A DNA stretch of 64,000 nucleotides. Origin: Methanocella paludicola SANAE (GTDB lineage Archaea; Halobacteriota; Methanocellia; Methanocellales; Methanocellaceae). Position 1 is the stretch's first letter. The number at the start of each line of letters is the position of its first letter. The position numbers and the translations under genes were made by a program. Below the pieces are notes generated by a model. The model did not search any database, was not told where the DNA came from, and worked only from the letters and a program-made list of their open reading frames with translations. The stretch is from contig NC_013665.1 of NCBI RefSeq assembly GCF_000011005.1, forward strand, positions 2,767,501 to 2,831,500, given 5' to 3'. Of this stretch, positions 36,911 to 45,994 are shown in pieces.

Positions 36911-38230
36911 TCAAAGCCATCTTCGCAGAGCGTAGCCCGTGCCCGCCATGCACAGGGCGCCCAGGGCCAGGGCGATGGCGAGAGGCACGTACTGCACTTC
37001 AGGGGGGCCGACCACCAGGACGGTGGGGTTGACGGCCAGGGCCGACCACACGGCCTCCACCTGGATGGTACGCGTCTCGGAGACCAGGCGCTGCCCGCCG
37101 TCCTCGTGCACCGCGTAGATCTCGTAGGTGCCGGGGGACAGGGCGAAGGAGAACTGGCCGCTATTCACAGAGGGCGAGACCTCCTGGCTGAGGCCATTAT
37201 TCAGGTAGACAGTTCCCGATATCGGGACGGGGTTGGAGCGGTTCTCGGTGAGGGCGATGATGCCGTAGATGTAGCCATAAGCCGGCTTCGGGTAGTCGAG
37301 GACCTTCACTTCGAGGCCCGCCGTGTCCTCCGCCGGGTAGAACTGCGTGTACGTGGTGAACGTCGAGCCGTTATCCGGTATGTTTATTTTGAGCCTCAGG
37401 AAGTCCGTGCTCACGTTCAGGAGGCCAAAGTCGAACGTGCCGTTAGCGTCTGAGGAAGCGTGGCCCCGGTCCTGGACCAGGTAGTCCTGGGCCGTAATGG
37501 TGGCGCCCTGTACGGGAGCGCCGCTGGCATCCAGGATCCTGCCTGAGAAGCTGAACGTGCCCCCACCGGCCGTGGTGTGGAATATCCGGTCGTAGACGTC
37601 CAACGGCAGTATCGAGGCGTTATCGCTGTAGGGGCTGAGCTCCAGCACGACGGGGACGGCGGCCTCGGACACGTTAATGGCCGTATCGGCGGAGCGGTAT
37701 ACGGTCCCGTTCGAATAGCCGACGGCGTAGAGCGTGTGGGGCCCGGTCGTGGTCGCGAGCGAGAAACGGTTCGCGGTGAACACGTAGACGCCCGAGCCGT
37801 TCTGCCTGGACACATCGTATGGCGTCGAGTCATATATGGTGTCGTTGTCCAGCACGACAAGCGGGTTGCCGGAGCCCATGCCGTCCATCCTGATGGTCCC
37901 AGTCACCTCCCCGACGCGACGCAGCTTTACCTCGATGGTGGAGTTCAACGCCTCGTGCCACACGGAGACGACGTCATAGTCGTCCACCAGCGCCCTTATG
38001 GCGGCGGAGCCGGGGCTGACGTTAAAAATACACGTGCCCGAAATGCCGGTCGTTTCGTTTCCCAGCACGGCGTAGTTGCCGTTCTGGAGGGCGACCTGGA
38101 CGCCAGCGGCGGGGGAGCCGTCCGGGTTGAACACCTTTACTGTAACGGAGATATCCGCGGGGTATGCGGTTGCCGTCGCGGGCGAAAGACAAAGGGCAAG
38201 TAATATCAGTACCGGGGTCAGGCGGCGCAT
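36911..38230 (-). CDS. Secreted, C-terminally anchored multi-Ig-like surface protein
   Basis: A 439-aa protein. Signal peptide (RRLTPVLILLALCLSPATATA), then at least three carboxypeptidase-regulatory/CNA-B-like beta-sandwich units (about 28-105, 108-200 and 225-330), for example VTVKVFNPDGSPAAGVQVAL and GRILDASGAPVQGATITAQD. One C-terminal transmembrane helix (VQYVPLAIALALGALCMAG) and a short basic end anchor it. No enzymatic motif is visible. The start overlaps the end of the upstream membrane regulator gene by 13 nt, so the two are one transcript. The same pairing (membrane regulator then Ig-like surface protein) recurs at 44608-41779. Confidence 0.82.
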   Translation of the reverse strand: MRRLTPVLILLALCLSPATATAYPADISVTVKVFNPDGSPAAGVQVALQNGNYAVLGNETTGISGTCIFNVSPGSAAIRALVDDYDVVSVWHEALNSTIEVKLRRVGEVTGTIRMDGMGSGNPLVVLDNDTIYDSTPYDVSRQNGSGVYVFTANRFSLATTTGPHTLYAVGYSNGTVYRSADTAINVSEAAVPVVLELSPYSDNASILPLDVYDRIFHTTAGGGTFSFSGRILDASGAPVQGATITAQDYLVQDRGHASSDANGTFDFGLLNVSTDFLRLKINIPDNGSTFTTYTQFYPAEDTAGLEVKVLDYPKPAYGYIYGIIALTENRSNPVPISGTVYLNNGLSQEVSPSVNSGQFSFALSPGTYEIYAVHEDGGQRLVSETRTIQVEAVWSALAVNPTVLVVGPPEVQYVPLAIALALGALCMAGTGYALRRWL

Positions 38231-40404
38231 TTCAAGCTCTCCAGCGCCATGGCGACGCGCTCGACGTACTCCTTACGGATGGAGTAGGCGAACCTGCCGC
38301 CGGGCATCGGCTCCTTCATGATGATTTCCTTGGAGGAGAGCTCCTTTATATACTTGCTGATGGTGGACTCGGCGATGTTCAGCTCCCTGGAAAGGTCCAC
38401 GTTGGTGCGCCCGGGCTTCTCGAGCAGCATGCCCAGCACCTTCCGGGTGGGCTCCCGCTTGATGAACGATAGCAGGACCTGCTCTTCCTTGCTGAACGTG
38501 TTGGAGTTCAGGAAGAACCGGACGTACTTATTATCGGCCTTCTGGGAGGTGATGCGGTGATTAATTCCTAATATTAGCACGTGGTACCGGGCCGTGCCCA
38601 GGTTCATGTCTATGCCCCGGGCGATCTCGTACAGCGTCGAGCCGGGGTGCTCGGATATGAACTTTAATACGACGTTGCGGTTCTCGTTCTTGTCGAGCCT
38701 CGACCGTGCCCTCGACACGGCGCCGACCGCGATGAACCGGATGAACAGGTAAGCGATGATCGAGATGGTAAGACCCGTCGCGGGGTCGAACTTAGCGGCG
38801 GAGATCGTGCCGTCCATGGTGCTGTAGAACAGGTTGCCGTTGCCATCGGCCATGGCCGTCACGGGCGAGTCCGTGGAGTACTGCCACTCCTCGCGGCCGC
38901 CGTTAACCGCCGCTACGCCCATGGCGTAGACGCACTGCGACTGTCCTACTACGATGGGATACTCGTAGTTATAATCGGCATAGCTAAGGTAGACCCGGCC
39001 CTCCGAGGGCAGGACGATAACGTCCGACTGCCCGTAGACCCTGGAGGAGAGGCTGCCGTATGGATAGCGCTGCTGGCTGCCGTCCAGGATGTCGCCGGAT
39101 GTGTACGGGCCGAAGATATTCCGGACGCTCGTCTCGTCCAGCGTGATAGTGCTCTTCTTGTAGGTCGGTATGGTGTACGACCATAACGTGGAGGCGTTCC
39201 TCACGTCGTACGCCGTTAGCTTGAGGGAGGCGAGGGCGTCCAGGCTGCTATTGTTCGAGGGCTCGGATGCCACGTAGTAGAGCACGCCGTCCTTTCCGGC
39301 CTTGTATCCCGATGAGTGATATTCGTCGTATGGCACGGGCTCCGACACGGCGGACCCGTCGCCCGACAGGACGTACAGGCTCGAGGCCGACAGGTTGGCG
39401 GAGTTCACGTGCTCCAGGTAGAAGTTACCGTCCGAATCCATCGGCATCAGCTCTAAAAGCTGTGTCGACTCGTTGAGCCTCTTCACCCAGATTACGTTGC
39501 CGCCGGTGTCCATGGCCAGTATGCCGTCCTTCAGGGGCAGGTAGAGGCTGCCGTATTTATAAAGAGGAAGCGAGTCGAACTGTTCCCTGATGTCCTCTCT
39601 CAGGTACTGCCGGATGACCGGCTCGCCGATGTCCCGGGTCCAGAGTAATTTACCGGAAGAGTCGTATGCGTTCACGATGCTTGAGGGCACGCGGTAATCG
39701 TAGGCGCCTCCCTCGAGCACCGGGTCGCTGCTGACCGGCTCGACGGCGTAGATGTTGCCCTTCTCGTCGACCGTGGCCGGGTCCGATACGTTAGAAATGG
39801 TAAAGAGCACGTGCCCGGAGCTGTCTATGACCGTCTCCTGGTAGTCGTGGAACACGTAGACGCGACCGCCCGAGGCGTGTATTGACACGGTATCCAGAGA
39901 AGAGCTTCCGTAAAGGATGAGCTTGCTTTCGAGGGGCACGCTCCATAAGATGATCCCGTCCTTCGAGATGGCGAAGACCTGGGTGAAGTTATTCACCGTG
40001 GCGATCTCGGCCGAAGTAACGGTTATGTTGGGCCGGGCAAGGACGTAGAGCACGCCGTCCGAAGAGGCCACCGTGGGGCTGACCTCCGTATTGCCGGTGA
40101 ACCCGCCCACCAGGATGTCGCCCGTATCCTTGAGCCGGAGCCACTCGCTCGAGATGCTCCAGTTGTCGGGTATGGTCAGGTTCCAGGCGGCGTTGCCATC
40201 GCTGTCGAAGGCGTAGATGCTGTTGCCCGTAAAAGAGTAAAGTATGTCGCCCGAAGCGTACATGTAGCCCGGCTGGTCGTAGGTGGGTGTCGTCCATTTT
40301 ACGGCCGCCGCGGTGGTGCTGGTGCTGATCATGGCGTATATGGCGAACGCCAGGAAAACGATTACCAGCGCTATCACTGCTTCGAAGAGTATACCCTTTT
40401 TCAT
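38218..40404 (-). CDS. Transmembrane one-component regulator: external PQQ-type beta-propeller, two cytoplasmic wHTHs
   Basis: About 728 aa from ATG 40404 (a GTG at 40410 is an alternative). TM1 at about 8-30. Residues 35-540 form repeats like YASGDILYSFTGNSIYAFDS and GNIYAVEP, typical of PQQ/quinoprotein-type beta-propeller blades with Gly-Asn/Ser-Leu-Tyr strands. TM2 at about 546-565 (LTISIIAYLFIRFIAVGAV). The cytoplasmic part has one winged helix at about 575-635 (GSTLYEIARGIDMNLGTARY) and a second at about 650-725 (RTNVDLSRELNIAESTISKY). The topology implies direct signalling from an external ligand to DNA. A paralog is at 42398. No PQQ-enzyme active site is evident. Confidence 0.85.
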   Translation of the reverse strand: MKKGILFEAVIALVIVFLAFAIYAMISTSTTAAAVKWTTPTYDQPGYMYASGDILYSFTGNSIYAFDSDGNAAWNLTIPDNWSISSEWLRLKDTGDILVGGFTGNTEVSPTVASSDGVLYVLARPNITVTSAEIATVNNFTQVFAISKDGIILWSVPLESKLILYGSSSLDTVSIHASGGRVYVFHDYQETVIDSSGHVLFTISNVSDPATVDEKGNIYAVEPVSSDPVLEGGAYDYRVPSSIVNAYDSSGKLLWTRDIGEPVIRQYLREDIREQFDSLPLYKYGSLYLPLKDGILAMDTGGNVIWVKRLNESTQLLELMPMDSDGNFYLEHVNSANLSASSLYVLSGDGSAVSEPVPYDEYHSSGYKAGKDGVLYYVASEPSNNSSLDALASLKLTAYDVRNASTLWSYTIPTYKKSTITLDETSVRNIFGPYTSGDILDGSQQRYPYGSLSSRVYGQSDVIVLPSEGRVYLSYADYNYEYPIVVGQSQCVYAMGVAAVNGGREEWQYSTDSPVTAMADGNGNLFYSTMDGTISAAKFDPATGLTISIIAYLFIRFIAVGAVSRARSRLDKNENRNVVLKFISEHPGSTLYEIARGIDMNLGTARYHVLILGINHRITSQKADNKYVRFFLNSNTFSKEEQVLLSFIKREPTRKVLGMLLEKPGRTNVDLSRELNIAESTISKYIKELSSKEIIMKEPMPGGRFAYSIRKEYVERVAMALESLKCAA

Positions 40405-40427
40405 TGACACACGTTATACTTCTTGGG

Positions 40428-40462
40428 TAGCTTAAATATACTTTCTGTCATAATCGCTAAAG
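40428..40462 (-). promoter_or_regulatory. Promoter of regulator 1 with shared upstream motif (site P1)
   Basis: On the minus strand CTTTAGCGATTATGACAGA (40462-40444) lies directly before the TATA box GTATATTTAAG (about 40442-40432). ATG 40404 and GTG 40410 fall near the expected start site. The motif recurs at P2, P3 and P4. Confidence 0.65.
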
Positions 40463-40567
40463 AAGGCGATAAAAGGCATGCTTCGGGAGTTTATTCTACT
40501 TTTACCTGTCGGTTGGCGCATATCCGCCCTGCGAGTAATTGTATGACCGGCGCACGCGGATTTGCGT

Positions 40568-40600
40568 CTTTAGCGATTATGAGAGAGAGCTTATATGCTC
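40568..40600 (+). promoter_or_regulatory. Promoter of the candidate ncRNA with shared upstream motif (site P2)
   Basis: CTTTAGCGATTATGAGAGA (40568-40586) faces away from P1; the first 15 nt are identical to P1 and inverted. TTATATG at 40591-40597 is the TATA box and predicts a start near 40620. Confidence 0.65.
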
Positions 40601-40619
40601 TACGGCCATAGAGTTGATT

Positions 40620-40722
40620 GTAGCAGGGCCTCGTGCCCTGGAGTTTCGATGGAAACTAGCCCCGTGGCGATACGTGCCGAGTGCAAGGGCACACATCTGA
40701 TCGCCGCAGCCATTTTTTGGGG
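40620..40722 (+). ncRNA. Candidate structured small RNA
   Basis: Downstream of P2 and without a convincing gene. Three perfect stems follow in order: CAGGGC/GCCCTG with a CTCGT loop (40624-40640); AGTTTC/GAAACT with a GATG loop (40642-40657); and GGCGAT/ATCGCC (40666-40671 with 40700-40705) enclosing GTGCC/GGCAC (40674-40678 with 40688-40692). A T6 run at 40713-40718 could end transcription. A 28-codon TTG-started ORF overlaps it but lacks an SD. I recognise no known RNA family. Confidence 0.5.
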
Positions 40723-40762
40723 CTAATTCATCGGAAAATTCGACCACAAGCTGCCTATTAAG

Positions 40763-40800
40763 GGAGGGGCGCGGTCTCCCATGCCTGCGCCCCGCCTCCC
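40763..40800. terminator. GC-rich hairpin between the ncRNA candidate and the 40822 gene
   Basis: GGGAGG-GGCGC pairs with GCGCC-CCGCCTCCC across a short loop, with a small bulge. It lies downstream of the minus-strand gene ending at 40822. No strong T-run follows on either strand, so terminator function is uncertain. Confidence 0.35.
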
Positions 40801-40821
40801 ATGTACTTTTTATTAAAGGGA

Positions 40822-41295
40822 TCATGCCTTTTTTATGCCCATGGCCACGATGAATAGCGCCAGTATGACAGTGGCCAGCGCAGGTGCCGGAGTGCTCGCG
40901 GGAGAGCTGCGGGCGGTAGACGAGGCGGGCCGGCGGTAGTTCTCGAGGCGAGTGTCGGCTAGTGGGATGACCACGTTGCCGCTCGCCTGGTACTGCGTGG
41001 TGAAGTATCCGGCGTTCGTGTAGGTCTGGTGACCGTCGTTATAGAAGGCCCTGATGGTGAAGTAGCTCGTATCGAGGCCCACGTCCGTGAAGGCGAAGCT
41101 GCCCGTGGAGCTGGTCTTTACTGACGATATTTCCGTGCGGTAGCCGTCGAAGAGAGTGACGTCGGCGCCCGGCACGGGGCGGCCGTCGGTGTCGGTCACC
41201 GTGCCCCGGATCGTGCAGGTGCTCGCCGCCGCAGGGACGGCTAACGCTATGGTCAGAAGGAGCACCGCTGACAAAATAAAATAAACCCTACCCAC
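40822..41295 (-). CDS. Secreted single Ig-like domain protein with C-terminal helix
   Basis: A 157-aa protein. Signal peptide (FILSAVLLLTIALAVPAAA), one carboxypeptidase-regulatory-like domain (CTIRGTVTDTDGRPVPGADV, then FAFTDVGLDTSYFTIRAFY), a Ser/Thr/Pro linker, and a C-terminal hydrophobic helix with a KK end (ALATVILALFIVAMG). The end resembles a PGF-CTERM signal in layout but has PAPAL instead of PGF, so it may simply be a membrane anchor. It is related to the 41779 protein (TYFT/NLRVIY strand, VTDxxxxPxPGAxxTL). Between them lies inverted-repeat element F. Confidence 0.78.
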   Translation of the reverse strand: MGRVYFILSAVLLLTIALAVPAAASTCTIRGTVTDTDGRPVPGADVTLFDGYRTEISSVKTSSTGSFAFTDVGLDTSYFTIRAFYNDGHQTYTNAGYFTTQYQASGNVVIPLADTRLENYRRPASSTARSSPASTPAPALATVILALFIVAMGIKKA

Positions 41296-41394
41296 TCGCT
41301 CACCATAAATTCTAATTGTTGTGGAATATATTAAATGCTTCTACTACTAGCTTCTGTAGTTCAGTATTAGTAACATAATCGCTTGCTTTATTTG

Positions 41395-41707
41395 AGGCAC
41401 TAAGCTTACAGAGGCACTATTTCCACCACAATGGCACGGAGTTCACGAAGGCCCACTAAGATTTTTTATAATTTGATGCACAGAGGCCACAAAGCCCGGT
41501 TCATTGTCGTCAAGGCACAAAGGATACAATGGCACAACGAATGAACAAGAGCACTTTTTGCCATCGTGTCATTGTCCCCTTCGTGACTCTTAACCAAAAA
41601 AGCCTTCTCAGTGACCTTAGTGACTCATAATTAAAAGAAAGCTTTGTGAAACTCAGTGAGCTTAGTGCCATTGTGGTTGAAATAGTGCCTCTGTATGCTC
41701 AGTGCCT
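41395..41707. repeat. Long inverted-repeat element F (family 2-like)
   Basis: Arms of about 65 nt pair with roughly 85% identity, starting AGGCACT at 41395 and ending AGTGCCT at 41707; both contain GAGGCACTATTTC and ACCACAATGGCAC. Inner parts share CACAGAGGCCAC and CCCGGTT with elements D and E. The element takes most of the 483-nt gap 41296-41778. No ORF. Confidence 0.82.
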
Positions 41708-41778
41708 TAAAAAATAGGCTATTTGACATAAGGCAATGATCGTGCAAACAAATCAAGAGTAAGCACGGAACTGCTGCG

Positions 41779-42348
41779 CTAGGGCTTCTGCGTCCGCATG
41801 ACGATGAAGCAGGCGAGAGTGGCCACGGCGGCGCCTGCGATGGCGCCTCCGACGAACAGGAGCATGTACACGACGGTGTTGTCGGTCGACTGGGCGGGCT
41901 GCGGGGTCGCCGCCGGCGCCTGGGTGGGGGCCGGCACCGGGGTGGCTGTCGCTCTGGGCTCGGAGCCCGGCATGGTGTAGTCGTCGTAGTGCGTCTTAGC
42001 AGCGTCCAGCCTGATATCTCCCTTCGCGGTCATCGCGGGGATGTAGTATCCCGGAAGCTCGTGCGCCCCGCTCTCGTCGGTATATATGACCCGGAGGTTA
42101 AATACGTTGGACGTCACGCTCACGCCCTCGAACGAGAAGTAGCCCTGGCTGTTCGTGTTCTGGGTGGTTATACGGTTAAAATCGAAGTCGTACAGCGTAA
42201 TGAGGGCCCCTGGAATGGGGTTCCAGTTGGCGTCAGTCACGGTGCCGGAGACGGAGAAGTACTCCCCCTCCACGGCGGAGGCGGGGAGCGCCGCGGAGAG
42301 CAGCATGGCGGCGAAGGCGAGGAGCAAGAGCGTTTTAGCGGAGCGCAT
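41779..42348 (-). CDS. Secreted Ig-like domain protein with C-terminal transmembrane anchor
   Basis: A 189-aa protein. Signal peptide (LLLLAFAAMLLSAALPASA), one carboxypeptidase-regulatory-like domain (YFSVSGTVTDANWNPIPGAL, ITLYDFDFNRITTQNTNSQG), a Pro/Thr/Ala linker (about 130-155), a transmembrane helix (VVYMLLFVGGAIAGAAVATL) and a short basic tail. It lies 49 nt downstream of membrane regulator 2 on the same strand, repeating the arrangement seen with regulator 1. Confidence 0.8.
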   Translation of the reverse strand: MRSAKTLLLLAFAAMLLSAALPASAVEGEYFSVSGTVTDANWNPIPGALITLYDFDFNRITTQNTNSQGYFSFEGVSVTSNVFNLRVIYTDESGAHELPGYYIPAMTAKGDIRLDAAKTHYDDYTMPGSEPRATATPVPAPTQAPAATPQPAQSTDNTVVYMLLFVGGAIAGAAVATLACFIVMRTQKP

Positions 42349-42397
42349 GGGATATCAACGGCCCTCTGATGGCTTACGTCCTATAAATCTTTTTTTA

Positions 42398-44608
42398 TCA
42401 GGCCGTCCGCTCGAGCGCCTTAACGACCAGGCACCTCACGTCGTCCCGGATACGGTAGGACACGCCCCCTGCCTGCCGCCGCTTATCCACGATGCCCCTC
42501 GTGTAAAGCTCCTTCATGTGCTTGCTCATGGCGCTCTCGGGCACTTTTAGCTCCTCGGACAGCTGGACGTTCGACAGCCCGGGCTTTCTCAATAGCGCCT
42601 CCATTACTCTGCGAATGGTGTCCCTCCTCAGGAGAGACATGAGCTGCTGCTCGTCCTTGCTGTAGGAGCCGGCGTTGGGGAAATAGCGGACGAACTTATT
42701 ATCCGCCTTATGGGAGGCGATACGGTGGTTGACGCTTAGGATGAATAAATGATAACGCACGGTGCCTTTGTTGAGCCCCAGGCTGCGGGCGATCTCGTAC
42801 ATCGTGGAGCCGGGGTTAGCGGCGATGTGCTTGAGCACGGCGTTCCGGTTATCGTTCTTGCTGATGGCGCCCCTGGCCCTTGAGACGGCGCCCGCGGCGA
42901 AGAACCGGATGAATACGTATAATACCGCCGCCATGGCAAGGCCTGTGACAACGTCAACGCTGGCCGCGGACATCCGGCCGCTTGCGGTGCTGTAATAGAC
43001 GGTGCCGTTCTTCTCGCACATGGAGCCGATCAGGGAGTCGACCGGCCTCCACCAGAGAAGGTCTCCGCCCGGGCCGAAGGCGTACAGCCCCCCGGCGAAT
43101 GCGGCACGGGATACATTGTAAATGGCCGGCGCCTCGTAGTTGTACGACCAGAACCCCGCGTAGGTCATGTCCCCCACCCGGGCGACCCTGAGCCCGCAGT
43201 CGCCGCACACGCACCGGGGCATAAAGCTGGAATTCAGGGCATTGAATATCTGCGCGTTCCTCGCGTCGTCCCCGGCCAGCAGGCCTTCCACGTTTGAGGC
43301 ATTGAGCGTTACTATGGCCGGCTCCCCGGGCGTGATGCTCTGGCTCCAGATTGTCCTATTACTTTTAAGGTCGATGGCCGTGAGCACGGCGGACTCGAGA
43401 ACTCCGAGCTTCCGCTCGCTTTCCGGATACAGCACGTCCGCTGTGTACGCGATCCCGTCGATCACGCTGGCGTAATCCCGGGAGCCGTCCACGCTGGAGA
43501 TCTCGGCCCCGTCCGGGCTGAGGATGGAGATGCGGGAGCCCTGTATGGGGTACTGGCCCACGAACGAGTAATAGGTCTCGCCCATGAAGGTGTATTCGCT
43601 GAGCGCCGTGCCGGAGTCGAACGTCCTCAGGTAGACGTTCCCGGCGGAATCGAACGGCTGCTGCTCGAATATTGTGGTGGCGACCTCATAGTGCTTGATC
43701 CACCTGACGGTGCCATTCCTATCCAGGGCGGCGATGCCGTTGCCGAGGGGCAGGTAGACCGTGCCATGGTCGTAAAGCGGCACGGTGCCCTTCAGCGTGG
43801 AGGCCGGCTCGCCGACGTCCTCCCGCCAGAATACGGTGCCGTTCGGGTAGATGGCGCTGACGATGCCCGACAGTACCCGCCTGTTAGGGTCAAGCTCGCC
43901 GCTGCGGATGGGCGCAACCGTGTAGACGTATCCCTGTTCGTCCACTGCCGGGGCAGCGCCCGTGTCCCCGATGGTCCACAGCACCCGGCCGTCGCCGTTT
44001 ATAGCTGTCACGTCGCTGCCATGGTACACGTAGACGGTGCCGTTCCTGAAGACGATGTCCGCGTCGTACAGCCCGGTGGAGAGGAGGATGTTCCAAAGGA
44101 TATCGCCATTGGTGGATATCGCGAGCACCCTTTCGTCGAGCGAGCGGGCGAACTCGGTGCCCGCATAGGCATCCATCAGCCGTTTGTTATGGTCGTCCAT
44201 GTCCAGGGTGGAGTCGCCGGCGTACGTGTATGGCAGGCCCCGCTCCATGGCGGCCCGGGTGACGTTGGCCCTCAGGTAGACGTACAGCGTGCCTTCGGGC
44301 GAGATGTCCACGGCCGGCTCGTAGTACTTGCTGCCGGCCCACCACTTATCCGGTATGTCCACGCTCCAGAGCGGCGAGCCGTCGCTCCCGATGGCGCTGA
44401 CGTGGCCGTCCGTGAGCGTCCTGAGCGTGCCGTCCTCGCACGCCGTTAGATAGTAAATGGTGCCGTTGCCCGCCGAGTCCCACTTGACCGTGGCACGGGT
44501 CTCGGTGGTCGTGAAGGCGTAGCCCGTGATCATGAGGTAGAACGAGAATATCAGCAATATGGCCGTCATGGCCAGTACTGACTCGAATAAGGCTCTCTTT
44601 CGTCTCAT
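42398..44608 (-). CDS. Transmembrane one-component regulator 2: external beta-propeller, two cytoplasmic wHTHs
   Basis: A 736-aa paralog of the 38218-40404 protein. ATG 44608 is chosen because GGGAG precedes it; a further 17 in-frame residues upstream overlap the promoter. TM1 about 10-32. Propeller-like blades run to about 540 (GTVYVYHGSDVTAINGDGRV, GTVYLPLGNGIAALDRNGTV). TM2 (VTGLAMAAVLYVFIRFFAAG) is followed by AVSRARGAISKNDNRNAVLK, near-identical in layout to regulator 1, then the two winged helices GSTMYEIARSLGLNKGTVRY and LSNVQLSEELKVPESAMSKH. A CxCxxC motif (CVCGDC) near residue 470 sits in the external domain. Confidence 0.85.
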   Translation of the reverse strand: MRRKRALFESVLAMTAILLIFSFYLMITGYAFTTTETRATVKWDSAGNGTIYYLTACEDGTLRTLTDGHVSAIGSDGSPLWSVDIPDKWWAGSKYYEPAVDISPEGTLYVYLRANVTRAAMERGLPYTYAGDSTLDMDDHNKRLMDAYAGTEFARSLDERVLAISTNGDILWNILLSTGLYDADIVFRNGTVYVYHGSDVTAINGDGRVLWTIGDTGAAPAVDEQGYVYTVAPIRSGELDPNRRVLSGIVSAIYPNGTVFWREDVGEPASTLKGTVPLYDHGTVYLPLGNGIAALDRNGTVRWIKHYEVATTIFEQQPFDSAGNVYLRTFDSGTALSEYTFMGETYYSFVGQYPIQGSRISILSPDGAEISSVDGSRDYASVIDGIAYTADVLYPESERKLGVLESAVLTAIDLKSNRTIWSQSITPGEPAIVTLNASNVEGLLAGDDARNAQIFNALNSSFMPRCVCGDCGLRVARVGDMTYAGFWSYNYEAPAIYNVSRAAFAGGLYAFGPGGDLLWWRPVDSLIGSMCEKNGTVYYSTASGRMSAASVDVVTGLAMAAVLYVFIRFFAAGAVSRARGAISKNDNRNAVLKHIAANPGSTMYEIARSLGLNKGTVRYHLFILSVNHRIASHKADNKFVRYFPNAGSYSKDEQQLMSLLRRDTIRRVMEALLRKPGLSNVQLSEELKVPESAMSKHMKELYTRGIVDKRRQAGGVSYRIRDDVRCLVVKALERTA

Positions 44609-44631
44609 GGGCTCCCACTTATGAAAAAATA

Positions 44632-44665
44632 ATTGGCCCTGTATTATAGCTTCTGTCATAATCTG
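44632..44665 (-). promoter_or_regulatory. Promoter of regulator 2 with shared upstream motif (site P3)
   Basis: On the minus strand CAGATTATGACAGAA (44665-44651) is followed after 2 nt by a TATA box (TATAATAC, about 44648-44641). This copies the P1 arrangement at the paralogous gene. Confidence 0.65.
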
Positions 44666-44686
44666 TTAACCTTGCTTAAGGTTCGT

Positions 44687-44711
44687 CGATCATGAGAGAA
44701 TGGATTTATAA
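44687..44711 (+). promoter_or_regulatory. Promoter of the metalloprotease with shared upstream motif (site P4)
   Basis: CGATCATGAGAGAA (44687-44700) precedes the TATA box ATTTATAAG (44703-44711). It diverges from P3 across 21 nt, so one bound regulator could control both directions. Confidence 0.6.
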
Positions 44712-44740
44712 GTGCGGGGGCTTTTTCTTATGGCGATAGG

Positions 44741-45994
44741 TTGAATGCCGGTCGAAAAATTATCATTGTTTTGATGTTGTGTTCGCTACTGCCTCTCCAG
44801 GCCATGGCGAACGGCGTCGACTATTCTGCGGGATTCGTCCCGGAGGCGCCGAAGGGATTTCAGGCCATATCCGGCCAGGACTTCGAAATCTGCTATGGCC
44901 CGGGGAGCGAGGGCGACATCGACGAGGTGGCGGACGCGGCGAGCGCCGCTTACGCCAGCGTCCATGCCTTCTTCCGGGGAGCGCCCTTCCACCCGACCAT
45001 CATCGTCGCCTCCGCCCACGAGGAGTACGAGGAGATACTGAACGCCGGGAGCCTGCCCGAATACAGCGTGAGCAGCGGGTGGGGGGATGGGAGCAGGAGC
45101 GCCATCGTCATCAAGCGCCCCGATGCGGTGCCTAACTTTCGGGTGGCCATGGCGCACGAGATGGCCCACATCGCCACGAGGAGCTATATCCGGGGATACA
45201 AGTACGCCCTGCCCGAATGGTTCAGCGAGGGCCTGGCCGTCTACGTGTCGGGCGACCTTCCCGGGGCCAAGATGGGCATGGTCGAGGATAACTGTGTGAA
45301 CGGCACGCTGATGTCCATCGACGAGCTCGAGCGGGTCCACCGGCTCTCGGCCACGGATAACGTGACGGCCGACCGGGTGAGCCTGGCCTACATGCAGTCC
45401 GGGCTGCTGGTGAAGTACATCGCCGATAAGTACGGCAACGAGTCGCTGCTTCAAGTCATGGACCATTTCGGGCCGATCGGGGACCTGGACTCGGTCTTCT
45501 CGTCGGTCATCGGGGACACGCCGAACGAAGTTAATTTCCAGTGGCAAAAGGAGCTTAAAAGGGAACTGGACGCCCGGGACGGGCGAATTCTCGAGCAGTC
45601 CGTCCACGGCTATGTGGTCGACCACCATGGCCGCCCCATGGCTAACGAGACAGTATCCTTCACGGCGCTGCGGAACGACTCGCCCGTCCAGGGGACGGTG
45701 TATACGGCCGTGACTGGCGAGGCGGGACAATACTCGGCCAACGTCACGTACGGCCCGCTGAAGGTTGTATCGGAAAAGCCCGAATATGCCGGGTTCAACG
45801 ATACGATAACGGTGGACAGGGGCCGGTCGATGTTCCTGAACGTGACGCTGAACGGGACAGCACTGGAAGAGAGACTGGCCAGGGAGAAGGCGGAGCGGGA
45901 CCGCAGGAACATGATCCTCGGAGGATCCGGGATTGCCATTGTTTGCATAATGGCTGCAGGTTTCGTGTATATCAGACGTAGACGATCCGAATGA
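44741..45994 (+). CDS. Secreted, membrane-anchored zinc metalloprotease (peptidase MA-like) with Ig-like domain
   Basis: A 417-aa protein from TTG 44741, the start that gives a complete signal peptide (KIIIVLMLCSLLPLQAMA). The catalytic HEMAH has His 139, Glu 140 and His 143, with a third ligand likely Glu 163 in EWFSEGLAVY, the gluzincin pattern of the peptidase MA family. A carboxypeptidase-regulatory-like domain follows (about 287-365, VHGYVVDHHGRPMANETVSF), then a transmembrane helix (NMILGGSGIAIVCIMAAGFV) and basic end. It should cut proteins outside the membrane. It is divergent from regulator 2 and shares its promoter motif. Confidence 0.84.
   Translation: MNAGRKIIIVLMLCSLLPLQAMANGVDYSAGFVPEAPKGFQAISGQDFEICYGPGSEGDIDEVADAASAAYASVHAFFRGAPFHPTIIVASAHEEYEEILNAGSLPEYSVSSGWGDGSRSAIVIKRPDAVPNFRVAMAHEMAHIATRSYIRGYKYALPEWFSEGLAVYVSGDLPGAKMGMVEDNCVNGTLMSIDELERVHRLSATDNVTADRVSLAYMQSGLLVKYIADKYGNESLLQVMDHFGPIGDLDSVFSSVIGDTPNEVNFQWQKELKRELDARDGRILEQSVHGYVVDHHGRPMANETVSFTALRNDSPVQGTVYTAVTGEAGQYSANVTYGPLKVVSEKPEYAGFNDTITVDRGRSMFLNVTLNGTALEERLAREKAERDRRNMILGGSGIAIVCIMAAGFVYIRRRRSE

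Follow-up and report, generated by a model that had tools for sequence, protein, structure and literature searches.

Mp1 and Mp2, two propeller regulators of Methanocella paludicola SANAE, probably function as one-component surface sensors that share one operator, autoregulate, and control surface proteins. This reading draws on the domain content and predicted topology of the two proteins and on an 18-nt promoter element found before most regulator genes of the family and before genes for surface proteins. Both regulators are encoded in a 64,000-nt stretch of the M. paludicola genome (the window), together with four surface-protein genes, as listed here.

38218-40404, minus strand: Mp1 (P0001), propeller one-component regulator of 728 aa, in the order TM1, PQQ-type propeller, TM2, wHTH1, wHTH2 (Pfam, AlphaFold2, topology, sequons)
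42398-44608, minus strand: Mp2 (P0002), propeller one-component regulator of 736 aa, architecture as in Mp1 (Pfam, promoter spacing)
36911-38230, minus strand: P0003, secreted, C-terminally anchored, CarboxypepD_reg/MG4-like protein, 13-nt overlap with Mp1
40822-41295, minus strand: P0006, third anchored CarboxypepD_reg protein, between the two regulator units
41779-42348, minus strand: P0004, secreted, anchored CarboxypepD_reg protein, 49 nt downstream of Mp2
44741-45994, plus strand: P0005, secreted peptidase of the Peptidase_MA_2 family (HEXXH) that ends in a CarboxypepD_reg domain and an anchor, divergent from Mp2

The reading frames of Mp1 and Mp2 are intact at the coordinates given in an earlier sequence-only reading, and the start of Mp2 is likely at 44608 because a longer ORF start at 44659 falls inside the promoter element. 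The PQQ_2 domain (PF13360) scores 39.5 bits in Mp1 and 48.4 bits in Mp2, above the curated Pfam cut-off of 27.6. Both proteins also contain tandem HTH domains, with HTH_24 above its cut-off. HTH_HVO_0163_N (PF24266, curated cut-off 31 bits) is matched above the cut-off in Mp2 (38.4 bits) and below it in Mp1 (26.1 bits) and in the regulator Mp4 (P0008, 30.2 bits). A Pfam scan found no kinase or receiver domain in Mp1 or Mp2. In other words, sensor and DNA-binding output domains reside in one polypeptide, and by domain content both proteins are one-component regulators.

How are these domains arranged across the membrane? An AlphaFold2 model of Mp1 (pLDDT 79.7), for which 15 aligned family members served as input, displays a helix (residues 2-29), an all-beta domain (35-538), a second helix (541-571), and two winged helices (574-709). 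In 15 of 15 family proteins, two segments are hydrophobic and TM2 is flanked by basic residues on its C-terminal side. Independent support for a propeller outside and wHTHs inside comes from the bias of N-X-S/T sequons in these 15 members: the ectodomains contain 170, where shuffling predicts 70.9 (sd 7.3), and the C-terminal parts contain 4, where it predicts 20.5 (sd 4.3). Judged from these sequence features, the propeller is very likely extracellular and the tandem wHTHs cytoplasmic. The ectodomain follows an N-terminal signal anchor, spans 470-920 aa across the family, and is glycosylation-rich by sequence; in the longest members, TM1 could instead be a signal peptide that is cleaved off, and the propeller-out, wHTH-in orientation would then be unaffected. 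The sequence-only reading had proposed this very chain of TM1, external propeller, TM2, and two wHTHs without a kinase or response regulator, and had named structure prediction as a check. Pfam, the AlphaFold2 model, and the sequons agree with it, and both the membrane-segment and charge pattern and the sequon bias place the wHTHs on the inside.

The surface-protein genes were also largely described correctly. A secreted anchored protein lies 3' of each regulator at the overlap and spacing listed above, and the secreted protease divergent from Mp2, whose zinc-site motif reads HEMAH...E (Peptidase_MA_2, Pfam), carries a C-terminal domain of its neighbours' type. That domain had been termed Ig-like; more exactly, Pfam assigns it to CarboxypepD_reg, a transthyretin-like beta-sandwich fold. 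The genes that had been listed were confirmed, but P0006 had been overlooked. CarboxypepD_reg (PF13620) scores 48.3 bits in P0003, 37.2 in P0004, 35.5 in P0005, and 44.0 in P0006, all above the cut-off of 32.3, and hydrophobic ends read from the sequence indicate an N-terminal signal and a C-terminal TM on all four. P0003 is likely co-transcribed with Mp1, and P0004, which has no element of its own, is likely co-transcribed with Mp2. These four CarboxypepD_reg genes within 9 kb compare with 46 matches across the whole 2.96-Mb genome (2,957,635 bases, one contig); the local cluster is real but specific to the M. paludicola genome. An 86-nt inverted repeat, 80% complementary, is present between two of the surface genes (window positions 41388-41473 and 41629-41714).

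About 15 propeller regulators were found in four Methanocellaceae genomes (M. paludicola, G001, G002, and G003), and each genome has them. M. paludicola encodes four, along with three propeller-less cousins, and G001 encodes seven plus remnants. Mp1 and Mp2 are not sisters in the family tree. Some members have another N-terminal domain before the PQQ-type propeller; in the orthologs P0007 (L011:5891-9337) and L060:5431-8736, proteins of 1100-1150 aa with a TM and two wHTHs, it is an RCC1 propeller. Truncated or fragmentary propeller regulators occur at L055:10103-10609, L062:38-721, and G002 C206:13219-14382, and two of them keep the promoter element. A direct duplication of ~9.4 kb in L064 (G001 2015000-2034000) contains propeller-less cousins and EarA-like genes.

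No propeller-wHTH fusion was found in 390 further Halobacteriota genomes in which two candidates were scored per genome, or in 116 Halobacteriota genomes in which up to nine were scored. The sole match in a GTDB scan was a Methanocella MAG. Matches outside the Methanocellaceae cover the wHTH part alone and are mostly proteins of ~250 aa with a TM, a short ectodomain, a second TM, and two wHTHs. It thus looks as though a widespread family of archaeal membrane regulators acquired the propeller by insertion into its ectodomain. A Foldseek search with a short propeller-less cousin returned generic wHTH proteins and nothing else. A viral origin was considered and rejected, as no relative was present among viral contigs. 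The layout had been called unusual. The propeller-wHTH fusion was not found outside the Methanocellaceae in these scans, and a partial coverage of the literature yielded no described archaeal family with it. The regulator class, however, is not a new kind, because propeller-less tandem-wHTH membrane regulators are widespread in Halobacteriota.

The proposal that each regulator is paired with a surface Ig-like protein in a repeated operon did not survive comparison of gene neighbourhoods. Only the two window regulators among the ~15 family members have an Ig-like neighbour downstream. In M. paludicola, G001, and G003, regulators occupy an interval bounded by RPA genes on one side and a PUA/TGT_C2 gene on the other, and the G002 regulators adjoin RPA or PUA/TGT_C2 genes on split contigs. 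In G001, G002, and G003, however, the regulators at this syntenic site lack the downstream gene, an outcome that the sequence-only reading had said would count against its proposal. The orthologs Ma1 and G2a have no Ig-like neighbours, and the neighbourhoods of the 15 members led to rejection of a strict regulator/Ig-like operon as a family rule. Other surface genes do occur nearby: an NHL-propeller anchored protein precedes one regulator in G001, and two PEBP-like secreted genes neighbour a regulator in G003. G003 also has a remnant beside RPA (L061:12241-12432), in which the element is followed by MKKGILFE, identical at 8 of 8 positions with the start of Mp1, fused to a 53-aa P0003-like tail. 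Its sequence is most simply read as the product of a deletion that removed the middle of an ancestral pair of regulator and surface gene; it may also encode a functional miniprotein. One such pair was probably ancestral.

What the regulator genes do have in common is a promoter element of 18 nt, TAACCGATTnTGAnAGAA, which abuts the BRE/TATA ~30 nt before the start codon. An unbiased EM run, carried out after the shared element was first suspected from reading upstream regions, recovered TAACCGATTnTGAnAGAAnCTATATTTA de novo from the regulator promoters, with its end about 31 nt before the start (log-likelihood 217 versus 72-86 in twelve Markov resamples). The element was clear in 13 of 15 regulator promoters, and in 14 once a wrong ORF start of G2b was corrected; the promoter of Mp4 has no clear copy. 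None of the 12 promoters of propeller-less cousins has it (14/15 versus 0/12, Fisher p 7e-7). A 36-nt sequence model, R1, was built from 14 regulator promoters, and its E-values are rough. The copies in the window are as follows.

40433-40460, minus strand: Mp1 promoter element, TTAGCGATTATGACAGAA plus TATA, ending 28 nt before the start codon (model R1, 28.2 bits)
44641-44668, minus strand: Mp2 promoter element, ending 32 nt before the start codon (model R1, 22.7 bits)
44683-44710, plus strand: promoter element of the P0005 protease, 30 nt before the start, left out of training
40570-40597, plus strand: second, oppositely oriented copy, intergenic, with no ORF longer than 28 codons within 200 nt downstream

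Scored without the TATA and leaving one out, the 18-nt box reaches 10.7-23.2 for regulators, whereas other window genes stay at or below 3.5, except for the protease P0005 at 14.6. The position of its element makes P0005 a predicted regulon member. No element was found before P0006, despite its position in the cluster. A generic Methanocella promoter was considered and rejected, given these low box scores and only about 4-15 sites per genome (7, 15, 4, and 5 in the four Methanocellaceae genomes at E<=0.01). By these sequence comparisons, the element is very likely a real cis-regulatory signal. Its range is essentially that of the regulators, confined to Methanocellaceae: at E<=0.02, single weak matches appeared in 7 of 96 other Halobacteriota, the best with an E of 0.004 versus 1e-6 inside the family. 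Good copies without an evident gene at the usual distance include the intergenic one at 40570-40597 and one near 2728 of L140, possibly marking small RNAs or unannotated short genes; another good site without an obvious gene is at M. paludicola 2379227.

Beyond the regulators, the model gave 35 further sites that score 13 bits or more; 10 of these stand before genes for secreted proteins of the CarboxypepD_reg/SpaA type, of which three carry PGF-CTERM. This enrichment has a p of ~8e-11 at a 1.5% background, with categories assigned partly by hand and several domain matches below the Pfam cut-off. Three relatives of P0003 are separate genes with an element of their own. Other targets predicted by the model are an OmpL47/Big_13-like surface protein, a large multi-propeller secreted protein, and EarA-like (PF07381) genes in G001 and G002, where in G001 only some EarA-like genes have a listed site; the site of a secreted transglutaminase-like protein falls just under 13 bits. 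All element and regulon evidence comes from one archaeal family and four genomes. The idea of a module that controls cell-envelope proteins keeps its link to surface genes, now through the shared element and the predicted regulon as well as adjacency, and loses the strict pairing.

Which protein binds the element? The recognition helix of wHTH1 is the best-conserved stretch of the 15 proteins (mean conservation 0.80, versus 0.53 for wHTH2 and 0.42 for the propeller), which suggests that the propeller regulators themselves are the more probable binders. They are also favoured because PF07381, which has no match in Mp1 or Mp2, is likewise absent from the M. paludicola and G003 genomes, both of which have the element. 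In the proposed mechanism, the wHTH1 recognition helix would bind the 18-nt element, and a ligand or cell-wall state sensed by the propeller would make the two membrane-tethered wHTHs change their conformation or their oligomeric state. The pair would then recruit TFB/TBP or block this recruitment. Activation is somewhat favoured over repression because the element sits just upstream of the BRE. The receptors would thereby regulate their own and each other's genes, and transthyretin/Ig-like surface proteins would be expressed in concert with a secreted peptidase and, in two of the genomes, with EarA-like regulators of the archaellum type. Paralogs would respond to different external signals through their diverged propellers and act on one shared operator. 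More tentatively, up to seven receptors per genome may form a surface-sensing array in which different cues converge on one asymmetric, autoregulating operator and a dispersed transthyretin/Ig-like (partly PGF-CTERM) regulon, in some species above EarA-type archaellum regulators.

It is rather unlikely that the element is the site of another factor, such as an EarA-like wHTH protein, another soluble regulator, or a special TFB, with the propeller regulators being mere regulon members whose own sites lie elsewhere. Another factor could bind in G001 and G002 because small EarA-like wHTH genes there are also under the element, and the element abuts the BRE, where EarA and ara-box factors act (PMC5512572). 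However, the element is present in all four genomes, including the two that lack EarA, which disfavours an EarA site; the EarA-like genes of G001 have a listed site only in part; and autoregulation is the better fit for an element that nearly all regulator promoters share and for a recognition helix that hardly varies. Coincidence, in which regulators and surface genes merely co-occupy a variable hotspot between the RPA and PUA/TGT_C2 genes, would agree with an interval that differs between genomes and with surface genes being common in the genome. It is most improbable, because unlinked surface genes share the regulators' element far above chance.

Two further alternatives concern the neighbouring proteins. 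In strict receptor-partner pairs of the ToxR-ToxS kind, the downstream surface protein would serve only the preceding regulator, as its co-receptor or its stabiliser. This would fit the close packing of the genes in the window (overlap of 13 nt, gap of 49 nt) and the G003 remnant, in which a regulator start and a P0003 tail meet at the corresponding locus. It would also fit a CarboxypepD_reg match, weak at 17.8 bits and below cut-off, in the ectodomain of one G001 regulator, and two short cousins (L014:6857-8358 and L015:6439-7719) that adjoin small secreted proteins alike at the C terminus. Yet most family members have no such neighbour, and proteins like P0003 are encoded elsewhere by separate genes that have the element themselves, which suits regulated targets better than partners, so that dedicated pairs appear unlikely. 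Regulated proteolysis, in which secreted peptidases of the regulon would cut the ectodomain and free the wHTH part from the membrane, is very unlikely. In its favour, the HEXXH peptidase P0005 is under the element and divergent from Mp2, and P0012 (L012:6568-8025), a secreted 485-aa protein with a clan-CD-like H-G...C pattern, lies upstream of Mp4. However, P0005 homologs also occur away from regulators, and P0012 is present in one genome only, without a family match and with a catalytic motif judged by eye.

Several known systems come close to Mp1 and Mp2. The propeller-less tandem-wHTH membrane proteins of Halobacteriota (HVO_0163_N/HTH_24) share the membrane topology and a homologous tandem wHTH module but lack the propeller and the ...RYHLLILxxNH of the recognition helix, and the promoters of the Methanocellaceae cousins lack the element. 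PQQ/BamB-type and designed PQQ propellers resemble the ectodomain in sequence and fold, whereas in the Mp proteins the propeller forms part of a transcription factor, flanked there by two TMs. The bacterial ToxR, TcpP, and CadC combine an external sensor and a cytoplasmic wHTH in one chain, with an N-terminal OmpR-type wHTH, and ToxR and TcpP have a downstream membrane partner gene. Their domain order is reversed relative to Mp1 and Mp2, whose wHTHs are C-terminal; family scans revealed no homology, and Trans_reg_C (the OmpR-type wHTH) has no Pfam match in Mp1 or Mp2.

Among archaeal systems, ArnR and ArnR1 of Sulfolobus acidocaldarius are likewise membrane-bound one-component regulators of surface structures, but have an N-terminal single HTH, a HAMP domain, a small sensor, two C-terminal TMs, and no extracellular propeller (PMC6396743). 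Mp1 and Mp2 instead follow the order TM, ectodomain, TM, two C-terminal wHTHs, and have no HAMP match in Pfam. EarA, the euryarchaeal archaellum regulator, is an activator that acts immediately upstream of the BRE (PMC5512572), which matches the position of the element, and EarA-like genes are predicted targets; unlike Mp1 and Mp2, EarA is a small single-wHTH protein.

Archaeal membrane-bound one-component regulators are thinly studied, and the 2019 ArnR paper described itself as the first biochemical analysis (PMC6396743). The propeller family supplies a candidate 18-nt operator together with predicted targets, by which surface sensing and remodelling in methanogens, and a possible surface-remodelling circuit in these archaea, become testable.
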